Part shown: positions 2,683 through 8,331 of the stretch, one piece after another
How the letters are laid out: every line of letters starts with the position of its first letter
Numbering within the stretch: position 1 is the first letter of the stretch
Assembly (NCBI GenBank): GCA_027062325.1
Contig: JAMOTN010000033.1
Location: 1 to 8,331, forward strand
Direction of reading: 5' to 3'
Source of the DNA: a bacterium
GTDB taxonomy: Bacteria; JAMOTN01
Length of the DNA stretch: 8,331 bases
Program-made: the position numbers and the translations under genes
The notes under the pieces: model-generated
What the model saw: the letters and a program-made list of their open reading frames with translations, nothing else
Database searches by the model: none
What the model was told of the DNA's origin: nothing

Positions 2683-3270
2683 ATGAGCAGAAAAAATTCT
2701 AAGGTTGCTACTAGAAAACCGAAAGAGACTCTTCAAAACAGAACTGTAAATTCAGCAACTGAAAACCAAGAGGCAAAACCAGTTGAGGAACTTCTTGATC
2801 AACCTATCGAAATTCTAATAAATGGATCACCCTCTGATTTGAGGGTAGATAAAAAAGTTAATGATAATTCTGGTAAGGTTAACAACATTAACCAGCATTC
2901 AAATCAGCCAGAAACTGAAACATTAAATTCTTTTGTAAGAGTAAATCCCTCAACCGCAGATGAATCAAGCAATAATTTTTTATCCTACTTCAAAAATCTT
3001 GAAAACATGTTGAATGTATTTGAAAACATGAACTCAACTTTAAACAAAATTGGAAAAGTATTACTGGAGCTTTTAGAACAAGACAGATGGATCTCTTTTC
3101 ACCTAAGCCAAATTAAAAAAAGGATCTCCTTTTCAAACCTTAAGTTTCCACAATATAAAACATGCAAAAATCTATCCACTGGTAACCCACATTTCAATAG
3201 CAACTCAACAAAATTTTTTAGAAGCACCAACAAAAATCATCACCAAAATTATAAATTTAAGCATGGATAA
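2683..3270 (+). CDS. Orphan asparagine-rich, largely disordered protein of unknown function
   Basis: The 195-residue product matches no family I recognise. It starts with a basic stretch (MSRKNSKVATRKPKE), followed by about 80 polar residues rich in Asn, Gln, Ser, Thr and Glu and probably disordered. One amphipathic helix follows (about 98-135) with regularly spaced Leu, Phe and Met, suited to coiled-coil or partner binding. The tail is basic and rich in Asn, Lys and His. I count 29 asparagines, about 15%. There is no signal peptide or membrane helix, so it is probably cytoplasmic. The start is firm: GGAGG at 2671-2675 lies 7 bases before the ATG. It is the only plus-strand gene here, divergent from the tRNA operon and convergent with the pilin gene, so it is likely monocistronic. 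Its promoter is unclear: TATAAA at 2632-2637 lacks a good -35 box. Confidence 0.75.
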   Translation: MSRKNSKVATRKPKETLQNRTVNSATENQEAKPVEELLDQPIEILINGSPSDLRVDKKVNDNSGKVNNINQHSNQPETETLNSFVRVNPSTADESSNNFLSYFKNLENMLNVFENMNSTLNKIGKVLLELLEQDRWISFHLSQIKKRISFSNLKFPQYKTCKNLSTGNPHFNSNSTKFFRSTNKNHHQNYKFKHG

Positions 3271-3285
3271 TACATAATTAACTAA

Positions 3286-3321
3286 AACAACAAAAAGCCC
3301 GCAGGCTTAATACCTGCGGGC
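3286..3321 (-). terminator. Rho-independent terminator after the acidic pilin gene
   Basis: A 9-bp GC-rich stem (GCCCGCAGG 3297-3305 with CCTGCGGGC 3313-3321) encloses a 7-base loop. On the minus strand it is followed by TTTTTGTTGTTTT, the classic intrinsic terminator layout, 30 bases after the pilin stop codon. On the plus strand the stem is not followed by a T-run, so for the convergent gene ending at 3270 it is at best a weak stop. Confidence 0.92.
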
Positions 3322-3351
3322 CAAACTTCTTATAACAACAGCGGTTTATAC

Positions 3352-3843
3352 TTATTGATAATTAGCAACCACCCAGAAGCTTCCGTAGTAATCTCCAGGA
3401 GCCTGAGTTTCCGGAACAGTCACATCTCCACCTATTCTAAAATAAAATGGAGACCATGAACCTGCTGACAGAGAAATTTGCCCACCATTACTAACAATAC
3501 CCTGATTATCAGAAAGATTTACAGTAAGAGTATTGGTTCCATCAGATATATCTACAGAAGTAATTGGAGTCGTCAAATCTCCAACAGCAGTAAACATTAT
3601 AGTCACGCCCAACAAATTAGAACCAACAACTTCTACACTTGCAGAAGTTGCATCTCCAGGAGTGACAGTAGCGCTATCTCCCTGGACGACATCTCCAAAC
3701 TCAATAGTTGCATAGTTAGAATCTACGATAACTTGAAGAGCTTGAATAACACGACAGTGAATGTGGACCTCTCCTGTTGCCGCTGCAAAAGCATATCCTG
3801 CACCAACCAACACGAACAAAAGCGCAAACAATACTTTCTTCAT
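3352..3843 (-). CDS. Probable major (shaft) pilin of a chaperone-usher pilus, DUF4402-like
   Basis: The 163-residue product has a Sec signal peptide (MKKVLFALLFVLVGAGYAFA, cleavage near 20-21), so it is exported to the periplasm. Mature residues 23-40 (GEVHIHCRVIQALQVIV) alternate hydrophobic and polar residues, as expected of the N-terminal donor strand that completes the next subunit. The rest is beta-rich, with IEFGDVV (47-53), DNQGIVSNGG (112-121) and a C-terminus GGDVTVP...GDYYGSFWVVANYQ, which matches the usual DUF4402 ending. The mature chain has about 14 acidic and 2 basic residues. Start: ATG at 3843 has GGAGGTG 6 bases upstream and gives a clean signal peptide; an upstream in-frame ATG at 3927 would overlap the promoter. 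Its own promoter, excellent ribosome site and terminator fit a protein made in excess over usher and chaperone. Confidence 0.85.
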   Translation of the reverse strand: MKKVLFALLFVLVGAGYAFAAATGEVHIHCRVIQALQVIVDSNYATIEFGDVVQGDSATVTPGDATSASVEVVGSNLLGVTIMFTAVGDLTTPITSVDISDGTNTLTVNLSDNQGIVSNGGQISLSAGSWSPFYFRIGGDVTVPETQAPGDYYGSFWVVANYQ

Positions 3844-3898
3844 ACTCCGCACCTCCCTCATTGTCCTGTATCCACTCTTAGCGGACTTTTCATAAAAT

Positions 3899-3927
3899 AT
3901 TCTATTAAACTTATACTTTTTCGTCAA
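3899..3927 (-). promoter_or_regulatory. Internal sigma70-type promoter of the acidic pilin gene
   Basis: TTGACG (3922-3927) and TAGAAT (3899-3904) are separated by exactly 17 bases on the minus strand, five of six matches to each consensus box. The predicted start near 3892 gives a leader of about 49 bases. It lies in the 127-base gap after the chaperone stop, so the pilin can be transcribed apart from the upstream genes. Within the leader, TCCGC (read from 3885 to 3881) can pair with GCGGA (3850 to 3846) around the ribosome binding site. Confidence 0.75.
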
Positions 3928-3970
3928 CTGTTCGCAACTTTCACCACTGCCTTTCTCCTAAATTAACTAA

Positions 3971-4765
3971 TTACAATTCCACTTCCTTTAGTAAAACCTT
4001 ATTCTTTAAATCGTACAATTTTTTATAGTAATAAACCTTAAATATAACCTTCTTATTTTTCAATTTTAGTTTCTTCTTCAACCACGCTAAATCAACTACT
4101 AAAACCTTCTTAGCAAAAACTCTCTTGGTATAAACTATCTTTTCGGCATCATTATTCACAAGATAGATACCTATTCTCACATTTCTGGTGCCCGTATTCT
4201 TGAAAGTTAACATTCCTTTTGAGTAAATACAATCAATGTTATACTTTGACTTTTCCGGAATATAGTATATCGGCATAGTTGTGAGAAAACCTATGGAAAT
4301 TGAAACCCCTACATTTTCCTTACCAGCATTTCTTCTACCAGAGCTCAAACGTGATTTCAAGTTTTGTATAACCAATCTACACTTTGCTTCCTCATTATCC
4401 TTTTTCAATTTGGATAAATACTTTTCTTTTATTCCAATACGCACTTTGAACTTTCCTTTTGGGGGAATAACAACAACTTTAGGAGATAAATAAAGAGATT
4501 TCAAAAAAGTTATATCTTTCTGATTATCAGTTTTCCCAAGAATAAGTTCTCCTGTGGAAGAATAGGTATATGGAATCAGCCACAGCTTGTATCTAACTAC
4601 TCTATCACTTGCTCCATATAAAGTTATATAACCTCTTGGCTTTTTATCTGACAACTTTATCCACGTAGGGACAACTTTGGCAAAATATGGTTCTGCTAAT
4701 ACTCTATAAGATAAAACAAGCAATACAAACAGCCACAACTTAAACCCCTTTAAGATTCTCACCAC
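3971..4765 (-). CDS. Periplasmic pilus chaperone, PapD-like
   Basis: About 264 residues, the usual size for pilus chaperones. Counting from GTG 4771, the signal peptide is residues 1-26 (ending SYRVLA), and the mature protein starts EPYFAKVVPTWIKLS, an edge strand typical of domain 1. SPKVVVIPPKGKFKVRIGI (96-114) resembles the strands that donate a hydrophobic edge to the pilin, and GFLTTMPIYYIP (161-172) is the usual end of domain 1. The second, Lys-rich immunoglobulin-like domain follows. Cys131 and Cys181 could form a disulfide. Its role would be to hold both pilins in the periplasm and deliver them to the usher encoded 16 bases upstream. GGGGGA (4772-4777) abuts GTG 4771 but is 6 bases from GTG 4765 and 9 from GTG 4762, so I prefer 4765. 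Sequence is divergent; the call rests on pattern, size and context. Confidence 0.75.
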   Translation of the reverse strand: MVRILKGFKLWLFVLLVLSYRVLAEPYFAKVVPTWIKLSDKKPRGYITLYGASDRVVRYKLWLIPYTYSSTGELILGKTDNQKDITFLKSLYLSPKVVVIPPKGKFKVRIGIKEKYLSKLKKDNEEAKCRLVIQNLKSRLSSGRRNAGKENVGVSISIGFLTTMPIYYIPEKSKYNIDCIYSKGMLTFKNTGTRNVRIGIYLVNNDAEKIVYTKRVFAKKVLVVDLAWLKKKLKLKNKKVIFKVYYYKKLYDLKNKVLLKEVEL

Positions 4766-4781
4766 AATCACTCCCCCTAAA

Positions 4782-7538
4782 TCAATAAAATTCTATCCAC
4801 TCTCCCCCCTTCAAAATCTTTACCCCATCATCATCAACTAAAACTTGTGCTTTACTCCCTATATCAGATTTTAGAGTATATTTTCCAGCTGGCAACCTAA
4901 CATAAAAATATCCACCCTCATAAATTTCAGCCTTTTCCTTATAAGAATCCGAAACAAACTCTAAGGTAGAGCTCTCATTCTTAACTTCTCCTTCCACATC
5001 CACAACTTTTATCAACCTATATACATACTCATACCTACTTTTATCAACCACGTATATGTTTTGTGGTCCTTCCAAAATCTTATAATTTTCCCCTAAATCA
5101 ATAAAAATTGAGTAAAAACCACTGCTTAAAGCTGTTATCAATCTTCCACTCTTAACTTTCCCCAAAACTTTATCATTTGCCAAAACTTCCACATTATTAA
5201 GGAGAATATCTCCTTTGTCATACTTCCCATTTAAATTTCTATCAACGTAGAAGAAGAAATCAACCACACTGCTTCCCAATCCTTCCCCAGCATTGAATTT
5301 GATACTTTTTTTCGAAGCCAGCATGCCTATCCTGTGATAAAAGTTCAGACTCCAGTCTAACTTTTCTTTATACTTAGCATCCAACCTACATCTCAAACCC
5401 TTAAATACAAAATTTGTTGTGAAAGATGGAAGAAACTTAGAACCATCTCTTACAAGGTTAAAAGAGTAAACATCCTTTCCCACAAATTTTCTATAGGAAA
5501 ATCCCACTAAACTACCAGTTGAGGAAAAATCAAAATCAAACTTCCCTCTATGTAAAGCATAAAGCGAAACTCCATAAACAAAATTTGAAAAAAAGTTTGA
5601 TGAGTATATGAACTTACCTCTTACATTCAAAGACATTAATCCAGGTACCAGAGCCAAAGCCAAATTATTTCTCAAAGTCAGGCGCCAATCTTCACGCTTC
5701 TCCAAGTCCACAGCGAGGTAGTACCTGTCATTTCTAAATAAAACTCCGCTCATATATCCATCAACATGCTCAAAATCCGTATTTAGCATGAGTTTAAATC
5801 TCTTACCTAAAAACTTAATAGTTGTATCCAACATTCCACTAGCCTCTCCCTCAGAAAAACCGAACAAAGCTTTAGTAAGCTTGGTATTATACTCTACTTC
5901 TCCCTTCCAATCGTCACTAATTTTAAAAAACCTCAAACTCAAATTCGTCAGCGGGGCAACTCCATACGAAAATTCAAACTTTGAGTTTGAAAAGCCAGGA
6001 TTCAAAGCTATATCAAATATCCCTTTCTTATAAGGAGCAATACGGACACTTGGTCTAATATTTTTTTCTATTATTTTTACAGCTCCGTATTTATCAACAA
6101 TTACAACCTTCAGCGGAGAACTCTGATAATAAACTTTTATTTTATAACTGGCAGGAATATTCCCTTCTTTGAATTCTTTCAACATTTTCCCATTGTAAAA
6201 AATACTTACTCTCCTCGCATCCCCATACTCAGATAAATCAATTGTATAGTATCCATACTCATCAAAATCAGAGGGATAATTATTAAAACTAACAATCATT
6301 TTTCTATTTTGAGTATAATATGAAAATTTCAACTTTCCACTTGGTCTGAACTTAACCGATCCTTCTATCAAATTCCCAACTTCAAAACCTCCTTCATTTA
6401 AATTCGATGAAAACGAAAGGTTAAAGACGGAAAACCCAACATCATAGTTAGCCTGCGAAGAAAAGTCCACTTTACCATTTTTAACAGAAAAATATATGTT
6501 ATTATTGGCAACCAAGGAACTATACTGAGCCTCTCTTTTTTGAGAAGCCAGGGCCACTTCCCTCAAATCAAAATTTTTATTATCTCCATCTCCCATTCTT
6601 TTAAATAAAGCATTAATAATGCTTTGATCCTCTGTTTTTAAAAATACTGCTCCATTTGAAGGAACATAGAACAACTTAATAACATTAAAAGCTTTGTTAA
6701 AATCATCCAAACTTAATACGCGACTGCGCACACCTAAACCACTTTTCAACAAATCCTTTTCAGAAACAAACTCAATTTTACACAACTCCTTACCGTCCTT
6801 AATAACAACTGACTTTCTCTTATTAAAATCAAAAAAATCCTTAAACTTAAGCACTTTATCTTTACTAAATAAAAAAACTTTTAAATCCTGCCCTTCTTTT
6901 TCATAATAAATTCCAACTCTTTTAAAAAACGGAAGTAAATCTAAAAAAACCTTTATCTCCTCTCCACCCATATAAGCACCTAGAAACCTGACTTCTTTCA
7001 GCAAAATCATTCTTCTAAAAAATACCGGCATATACATTTCAAATAATTCTACAGAAACATTTTCCTCGTTTATTCCATCTACTTCATAAAGTGTTGGTGT
7101 ACAGAACTCATCGGGAGCAACATTTTTTACAACCACATTTGAAGACTTCAACATTTTAACAATGGGAGTTTTTACAGTAAAAAAGCGTCTTTCAATCGGC
7201 ATTGAAACAACATATAAATTTTCATCTTTTGAAACACGTCTATACACTTTCTCATCCAAATCAAGTAAATATCTGATGCCAGAAGGAAGATTTTTTAAAT
7301 CAAAATTATTATTAGCTAGGATTGTATTAAATAACCTAGAATGATGTCTAGAGGATTGGGAAACCATACCAAACTTTTTGCTAAGCCTCACATCCAAATT
7401 TACAATTTGAGAAGGAGGCTCTTTTTCTACTTTTATAAATACAACATTCAAAAACAACAACAGAACGAATATCAATCCCAAAAAAAGCAATACTTTAAAG
7501 CGATTACTTTTAGAAATTTTTAAATTTTCAAATTTCAT
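4782..7538 (-). CDS. Outer-membrane usher of a chaperone-usher pilus, highly divergent
   Basis: About 918 residues from ATG 7538. A basic start and hydrophobic stretch (about 14-36) form a signal peptide or anchor. Residues ~40-340 are a poorly conserved periplasmic region with Cys146 and Cys253. Around 340-430 barrel-like strands begin (YSSLVANNNIYFSVKNG). Residues ~440-510 match the usher plug and its exit: RVSIFYNGK, then IPASYKIKVYY, VVIVDKYGAVK, and IRPSVRIAPYKKGIFDIALN. About 250 more residues alternate aromatic and polar residues as in a beta-barrel. Then FFFYVDRNLNGKYDKGD (~761-777) opens a C-terminal beta-sandwich of the SdrB-like or CS1-usher type, and VEGEV...LPAGKYTL (~848-890) a second one. 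Role: outer-membrane channel that catalyses pilin polymerisation. Start: ATG 7538 has AGAGG 9 bases upstream, while the upstream ATG 7568 has no ribosome site. It lies 36 bases after the first pilin gene. Confidence 0.78.
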   Translation of the reverse strand: MKFENLKISKSNRFKVLLFLGLIFVLLLFLNVVFIKVEKEPPSQIVNLDVRLSKKFGMVSQSSRHHSRLFNTILANNNFDLKNLPSGIRYLLDLDEKVYRRVSKDENLYVVSMPIERRFFTVKTPIVKMLKSSNVVVKNVAPDEFCTPTLYEVDGINEENVSVELFEMYMPVFFRRMILLKEVRFLGAYMGGEEIKVFLDLLPFFKRVGIYYEKEGQDLKVFLFSKDKVLKFKDFFDFNKRKSVVIKDGKELCKIEFVSEKDLLKSGLGVRSRVLSLDDFNKAFNVIKLFYVPSNGAVFLKTEDQSIINALFKRMGDGDNKNFDLREVALASQKREAQYSSLVANNNIYFSVKNGKVDFSSQANYDVGFSVFNLSFSSNLNEGGFEVGNLIEGSVKFRPSGKLKFSYYTQNRKMIVSFNNYPSDFDEYGYYTIDLSEYGDARRVSIFYNGKMLKEFKEGNIPASYKIKVYYQSSPLKVVIVDKYGAVKIIEKNIRPSVRIAPYKKGIFDIALNPGFSNSKFEFSYGVAPLTNLSLRFFKISDDWKGEVEYNTKLTKALFGFSEGEASGMLDTTIKFLGKRFKLMLNTDFEHVDGYMSGVLFRNDRYYLAVDLEKREDWRLTLRNNLALALVPGLMSLNVRGKFIYSSNFFSNFVYGVSLYALHRGKFDFDFSSTGSLVGFSYRKFVGKDVYSFNLVRDGSKFLPSFTTNFVFKGLRCRLDAKYKEKLDWSLNFYHRIGMLASKKSIKFNAGEGLGSSVVDFFFYVDRNLNGKYDKGDILLNNVEVLANDKVLGKVKSGRLITALSSGFYSIFIDLGENYKILEGPQNIYVVDKSRYEYVYRLIKVVDVEGEVKNESSTLEFVSDSYKEKAEIYEGGYFYVRLPAGKYTLKSDIGSKAQVLVDDDGVKILKGGEWIEFY

Positions 7539-7550
7539 TTTAGCTAACCT

Positions 7551-7565
7551 CTGCTTATAAAGCAG
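7551..7565 (-). promoter_or_regulatory. Small hairpin touching the usher ribosome binding site
   Basis: CTGCTT (minus strand, 7565-7560) pairs perfectly with AAGCAG (7556-7551) around a three-base loop. The last two bases of the stem are the first two of the usher's AGAGG ribosome binding site. Folding could lower usher translation relative to the upstream pilin. It is short and may have no effect. Confidence 0.35.
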
Positions 7566-7574
7566 CATGGTATA

Positions 7575-8087
7575 TCACAACAAATTTGCAACTACATAAA
7601 GAGTACCGTAGTAATCTCCTTCTATTGCCTTTTTAGGAACTTTAATTTTTCCACATATCTTAATTCGCAATCTTTTTTTAAAAAAGAATAAGTTACTCCC
7701 TCCATTTTTGACAATTTCCTGGTTATCCCTTAGTTTTACTACTAATGGTTTTACATCCGTAATAGGTGTAGGCATAAAACCATCCCAAAAAAGCTTCACC
7801 TTAGTAGTAGGTGATAAGCTCGAATCAGAAGCATCTACAAACCTAACTTCAAAAATAACATTTCCCGAAGTTCGAACAATCACCTTAGCTGCATCAGTAG
7901 AATTACAAGGCACTTTTTTAGAATCACCTATAACAACATCTCCAAATTCTAGTAGATCATCCCTAACTATAACTTTTACAAAATTCCTCCTTCCAGGAAA
8001 TGGAAAAGGAAAAAAAGTTCCACTATAATTTTCACTTAAAAACATGAAAAGAAATAATATTATTGTAAATACCAATACTTTCCCCAT
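7575..8087 (-). CDS. Minor, possibly tip, pilin-like subunit (paralogue of the acidic pilin)
   Basis: The 170-residue product has a hydrophobic signal-peptide-like start (MGKVLVFTIILFLFMFLSEN, cleavage near 20-23). It shares landmarks with the pilin at 3352-3843: EFGDVV-GDS (47-56), DNQEIVKNGG (121-130) and GDYYGTLYVVAN (157-168), so the two are paralogues of the DUF4402-like fold. It differs in three ways. The expected donor strand is replaced by TFFPFPFPG (24-32), the mature chain is basic (about 24 Lys/Arg to 15 Asp/Glu), and it has two cysteines (61, 145) that could form a disulfide. First position in the operon and lack of a normal donor strand suggest a tip or initiating subunit; this is inference. 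ATG 8087 has no ribosome binding site, and a promoter lies immediately upstream, so it may be translated from a leaderless mRNA. Confidence 0.72.
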   Translation of the reverse strand: MGKVLVFTIILFLFMFLSENYSGTFFPFPFPGRRNFVKVIVRDDLLEFGDVVIGDSKKVPCNSTDAAKVIVRTSGNVIFEVRFVDASDSSLSPTTKVKLFWDGFMPTPITDVKPLVVKLRDNQEIVKNGGSNLFFFKKRLRIKICGKIKVPKKAIEGDYYGTLYVVANLL

Positions 8088-8233: not shown

Positions 8234-8331
8234 GGGCTGGCGGACACCTATTTTTCCACCCCTTCCCGGCGGGGCAGTATCGTCGGCTGTAGGGGGCTTA
8301 ACTTCCGGGTTCGGCATGGCTCCGGGTGTTT
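8234..8331 (-). rRNA. rrf: 5S ribosomal RNA, 5' end cut off by the window edge
   Basis: The minus strand contains the universal 5S core (GCCATGCCGAACCCGGAAGT followed by TAAGCCCCC), then GCCGACGATACTG, a GC-rich helix (CCCCGCCGGGAAGGGG) and the 3' strand GTGTCCGCCAGCCC. About 98 bases are present; the usual length is near 115-120, so roughly 20 bases at the 5' end lie outside. It is presumably the last gene of an rRNA operon extending to the right. Its high GC content against the AT-rich surroundings suggests growth at high temperature. Confidence 0.95.

Follow-up and report, generated by a model that had tools for sequence, protein, structure and literature searches.

The window analysed here, 8,331 nucleotides at its full length, is the whole of one contig (C33) of a metagenome bin of 1.65 Mb that is 84% complete and consists of 81 contigs. 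Four genes on the minus strand, described in an earlier, sequence-only reading of this DNA, are present where that reading placed them (open reading frame coordinates were checked) and are transcribed in the order P1, U, C, P2, along with the following features.

7575..8087, minus strand: P1, DUF4402-like pilin paralogue of 170 aa, proposed tip subunit
4782..7568, minus strand: U, predicted outer-membrane usher, 928 aa from the first ATG (918 aa from a start at 7538)
6054..6236, minus strand: conserved segment of U, residues 445-505, from hhalign and alignment (pLDDT 74-85)
4785..5270, minus strand: C-terminal domains of U with the motif DxNxNGxxDxGD (SdrD-B/carboxypeptidase-regulatory-like), from alignments with relatives
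3971..4771, minus strand: C, predicted PapD-type periplasmic chaperone, 266 aa from a GTG
3352..3843, minus strand: P2, DUF4402 pilin of 163 aa, proposed shaft subunit, with its start moved from 3927
3296..3322, minus strand: intrinsic terminator-like stem of 11 pairs (8 G-C) with a T-rich tail, just 3' of P2
8094..8122, minus strand: promoter-like TTGATA-17-TATCAT directly upstream of P1, a consensus match only
3899..3927, minus strand: promoter-like TTGACG-17-TAGAAT in the gap between C and P2, a consensus match only
8235-8331: partial 5S rRNA gene, upstream of the operon

The gaps between P1 and U and between U and C are about 10 bases or fewer, and about 127 bases separate C from P2. For P2, the ATG at 3843, with a Shine-Dalgarno-like GGGAGGTG upstream, appears a likelier start than the TTG at 3927, because GGGAGGTGCGGAGT precedes this ATG and the protein then begins with a clean signal peptide. 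The 5S rRNA gene upstream and the GC-rich stem at 3296-3322 downstream limit the operon to these four genes, with no room between 5S and terminator for an additional pilin or adhesin gene.

The genes of four tRNAs, for Gln, Glu, Val and Lys (minus strand, 2064-2424), lie downstream of the pilus operon, and a 195-aa Asn/Ser-rich ORF (plus strand, 2683-3270) faces it between the terminator and the tRNAs. In two adjacent minus-strand ORFs (3-239 and 251-1894), the hydrophobic N-termini recall PilX-like proteins of type IV pili; the longer ORF, of 547 aa, matched no family.

Identification of the components through related loci

Direct library searches identify only one of the four proteins. P2 matches DUF4402 (PF14352; 33 bits, cut-off 25.2), and P1, for which no Pfam, NCBIfam or PHROG model gave a match, is paralogous to P2 (34%, BLASTP E 9e-17), so that the proposal of two DUF4402 pilins holds directly for P2 and by paralogy for P1. 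The usher and the chaperone are indeed divergent, as had been suggested: neither produced a significant match to Pfam, NCBIfam or PHROG, including the usher and PapD families, and sequence comparison of both with the PDB gave no useful match. Direct searches of 98 genomes, the contig collection and plasmids recovered no close relatives of U, nor did direct hhalign of U against Pfam-type ushers yield a match.

A search for DUF4402 in 145 genomes led to three informative genomes besides the host's own. At these seed loci, DUF4402 pilins adjoin a protein of 279-287 aa, which scores above the PapD_N cut-off in one of them, and a protein of 855-899 aa. Searching the 114 genomes of one seed phylum with a profile of the three large proteins gave relatives in 22 of them, Bdellovibrionales included, and a scan of named genomes produced 233 loci, 80 of which were kept (L045-L124), from Bdellovibrionales, Alpha- and Gammaproteobacteria, Desulfobulbus and relatives, Zixibacteria, Chlorobiales, Eisenbacteria and Acidobacteriota. 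The kept and seed loci together provide 83 ushers, 77 chaperones and 155 DUF4402 pilins. In a search of 386 genomes, most matches covered the SdrD-B-like end only and were not counted as ushers.

The large proteins are taken as ushers on three lines of evidence, namely the alignment of the family profile with FimD and Pfam-type ushers of another phylum (hhalign 98%, E 2.4e-13, 531 columns), the Foldseek matches of the U model described below, and the constant company of a PapD chaperone and DUF4402 pilins. The Pfam usher model matches only one of the 49 aligned family ushers, and members found on plasmids carry the label 'carboxypeptidase regulatory-like' or hypothetical.

Several loci show further variations. 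Desulfobacterota-type loci (L065, L073, L075, L079, L084, L090 and L119) have ushers whose open frames, with unchecked starts, span 1240-1390 aa and exceed the others by about 400 residues; another small genome (L168, G027 contig C73) has a divergent chaperone (48.6 bits) beside an usher that is divergent as well; and a 480-aa open frame with three tandem DUF4402 matches (L015 672-1985, G142 contig C238) is a possible fused pilin.

Profiles built from the kept and seed loci recover all four proteins of the operon, with the scores of C, U and P1 exceeding the shuffle controls: C reaches 32.0 bits with the HMM of the family's 77 chaperones (500 shuffles gave at most 6.4), U 26.6 bits with that of the 83 ushers (best of 300 shuffles 1.4), and P1 and P2 score 10.0 (best of 500 shuffles 2.6) and 47.9 bits, respectively, with the pilin HMM. 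The complete chaperone-usher set that had been claimed from the letters alone, a chaperone, an usher and two pilins, is thereby supported through the profiles of relatives.

C, which matches no Pfam model directly, has the properties expected of a PapD-type two-domain periplasmic chaperone, as judged from its HMM score, its similarity to one family chaperone (BLASTP E 3.5e-6) and hhalign (E 1.2e-4); PapD_N is matched by 36 of the 55 members of the chaperone alignment (A6). Archaic chaperones anchor the pilin carboxylate by Arg89 and Tyr196 in CsuC (PMC4654587). By sequence alignment only, these residues correspond to Arg132 (strand F1) and Tyr214 (domain 2) of C, and the same kind of alignment revealed no counterpart in C of the second domain-2 Arg of the archaic anchor. 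The near-invariant Arg37, Arg130, Arg171 and Arg192 of the family are Trp, Lys, Ile and Asn in C.

U shares only 14-18% identity with the family ushers, and hhalign connects it to them at 95%. The direct profile match falls mainly in the last barrel strands and in the C-terminal domains, which are also present in other proteins, while residues 445-505 correspond to the family stretch GWEVELYRN...GRYxF...YGPxGE on the plug side of the barrel and rank with the most confidently modelled parts of U (pLDDT 74-85). The AlphaFold model, built from an alignment of 49 ushers with no templates, has a mean pLDDT of 57, with about 70-85 in the C-terminal barrel half and plug region and a poorly modelled N-terminal region; a single-sequence model (pLDDT 33) was not used. 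In a Foldseek search of the PDB, the first 17 matches of the model are FimD and PapC (E 7e-13 to 4e-4, up to 830 columns), so that the test of the usher fold, on which the sequence-only reading had staked its claim, came out in its favour. With VIA-align the model matches FimD at Z ~10 over residues 295-855, and because other large barrels reach similar Z, it is Foldseek and the genomic context that carry the usher assignment. A search against viral structures returned nothing relevant. The fold may be owed in part to the relatives' alignment, which may impose their own fold; as predicted, U is an outer-membrane usher that combines a large barrel of putatively 24 strands with a plug and C-terminal domains.

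A candidate second usher in the genome (contig C69, E 0.05) was rejected, as the match falls in a C11-type-peptidase-like ORF. A C11-peptidase-like ORF of the same contig (L001 2272-3204) begins with MRSMKKVALLLVLLMVGAGFAAT, near-identical to the P2 leader VRSMKKVLFALLFVLVGAGYAFAA.

As the family profiles recover C, U, P1 and P2 and the U model matches FimD and PapC first, the product of the operon is very probably a chaperone-usher pilus that belongs to a DUF4402-type branch.

Gene order, known systems and the roles of the two pilins

The DUF4402 loci (L012/L048 of Deltaproteobacteria bacterium GWA2_38_16, L013, L014 and L045-L124) have the same three components as the P1-U-C-P2 operon, which likewise groups a DUF4402 pilin with its chaperone and usher; they also share the DxNxNGxxDxGD C-terminal domains of the usher and one to several DUF4402 pilins, and most of those with multiple pilins combine, as here, one donor-bearing with one donor-poor pilin. 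The operon differs from them in that the usher is directly followed by the chaperone, in the loss of the four near-invariant residues of C and in its hyperthermophilic host. The order pilin, usher, chaperone, pilin, which had been singled out as unusual, is real and occurs at none of the 83 related loci, some of which are cut by contig ends, but it is of little information, because order is fluid in the family: P(1-3)CU is commonest, and PCUP, UPPC, PCPUP and arrangements on both strands are also found. Nor is the 'minimal' gene set special, many relatives being equally small.

The archaic (sigma) Csu system of Acinetobacter baumannii would share the donor-strand logic, and the Arg (F1) and Tyr (domain 2) by which its chaperone anchors the carboxylate align with residues of C, but its pilins are of the SCPU type, a two-domain tip adhesin of the kind that it possesses is absent here, its gene order differs, and U, unlike its counterpart in Csu, ends in SdrD-B-like domains and has no match to PF00577. 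Archaic pili are recognized by SCPU pilins and a two-domain tip adhesin, whereas P2 gave no match to SCPU models and P1 is a single domain. As for the sigma clade of ushers, Pfam-type ushers align with the profile of the family (98%) but not with U alone. The proposed thermophilic branch of the archaic pili is not supported: SCPU is absent, U has no Pfam-usher match, and the family members come mostly from organisms not known as thermophiles. With type 1 FimD/FimC of E. coli, the operon shares the usher fold (FimD is the best structural match of U) and a PapD-type chaperone, and it differs in the pilin family, in having no direct sequence match and in the absence of a FimH-like two-domain adhesin. 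The description of an operon devoid of a large two-domain adhesin, with paralogous single-domain DUF4402-like pilins at both ends, stands.

We infer that P1 and P2 would enter the periplasm by Sec, where C would bind each pilin, lend it a strand and hold its C-terminal carboxylate; the complexes would dock on U, a plugged outer-membrane barrel, and donor-strand exchange would join the subunits while the fibre exits through U.

The two pilins differ at their N-termini. That of P2 is donor-strand-like, with AATGEVHIHCRV, and AATGEVHIHCRVIQALQV precedes an LxFG-like motif; the latter segment resembles the donor strand of CsuA/B, which is a lead rather than a test. In P1, the corresponding segment between the signal peptide and the first core strand, SGTFFPFPFPG, contains three prolines, and this proline-rich stretch does not look usable as a donor strand. 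By the general logic of donor-strand exchange, only the first, distal position is open to a subunit that lacks such a strand, so P1 would occupy the distal end, likely as a single-domain tip, and P2 would form the shaft. Extra P2 might be supplied by its own promoter (3899..3927) and a strong ribosome site.

Related operons offer a suggestive parallel. Donor-bearing pilins (N-terminal strand long and proline-poor) and donor-poor ones (strand short or proline-rich) occur together in 34 of the 44 related operons with at least two pilins, against a shuffle mean of 24.9; the pattern is only suggestive because prolines became a criterion only once P1 had been seen and because length alone gives no significant pairing (p 0.18). 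A rival reading takes P1 as an alternative shaft or base subunit of a pilus that is a polyadhesin along its length. This arrangement, which we regard as possible though on balance doubtful, would suit the similar sizes of P1 and P2, the equally long interval from hydrophobic core to LxFG (34 vs 35) and the 9 of 44 related operons with only donor-bearing pilins. Against it, the putative donor segment of P1 has three alternating prolines, and just 9 of the 94 long-type pilins have three or more; a subunit lacking such a strand, moreover, could not be joined to a preceding one.

It is also conceivable, if quite improbable, that the PapD-like chaperone and the large barrel export and display DUF4402 proteins singly, with no polymerised pilus. 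Such a reading could draw on the missing donor strand of P1, on the poor model of the N-terminal region of U and on DUF4402 being a domain of no tested function; no paper naming DUF4402 or PF14352 was found in a literature search that covered few subscription journals. It is contradicted by the donor-strand-like N-terminus of P2, by family operons that combine donor-bearing with donor-poor pilins and by the alignment of family ushers with FimD-type ushers over 531 columns. A polymerised pilus, likely with P1 at its tip and P2 in its shaft, is the reading we retain.

The host and the wider family

The bin encodes a full-length reverse gyrase (830 bits), and its 16S has a GC content of 61.7%, compared with 35% for the contig; the host is therefore very likely a hyperthermophile, which strongly supports the earlier guess of a probable thermophile. 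The compared genome set contains no other member of its phylum. No literature on chaperone-usher pili in hyperthermophiles was found by title or abstract, which is weak evidence of novelty.

The link to this host depends on the contig belonging to the bin. The 5S and its downstream flank at the right end of the contig recur at the start of the bin's only 16S-23S contig (~127 bases that differ, on reading by eye, in one homopolymer; an exact-match comparison of the two ends gave no match), so the pilus operon sits directly behind the rRNA operon. There is a slim chance that the contig is a contaminant and the link to a hyperthermophile false, given that the bin is fragmented and that base composition does not discriminate the contig from it. 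The 5S and flank shared with the contig whose 16S is 61.7% GC speak against contamination, although 16S contigs are themselves prone to misbinning, which weakens this argument. The pilus would likely serve attachment or biofilm formation of a hyperthermophile.

The more interesting part of these observations is the overlooked DUF4402-type family that contains the operon. We lean, with some reservation, towards a broad, unnamed DUF4402 branch that spans many phyla, including a reverse-gyrase lineage, employs donor-less single-domain tips and has an usher family that went overlooked because standard usher models fail on it. The analysis places a chaperone-usher pilus in a hyperthermophilic bacterium without a sequenced close relative, exposes a large usher family hidden behind 'carboxypeptidase regulatory-like' labels, with 233 matches in one scan, and offers for DUF4402 a function that can be tested, that of a pilin.
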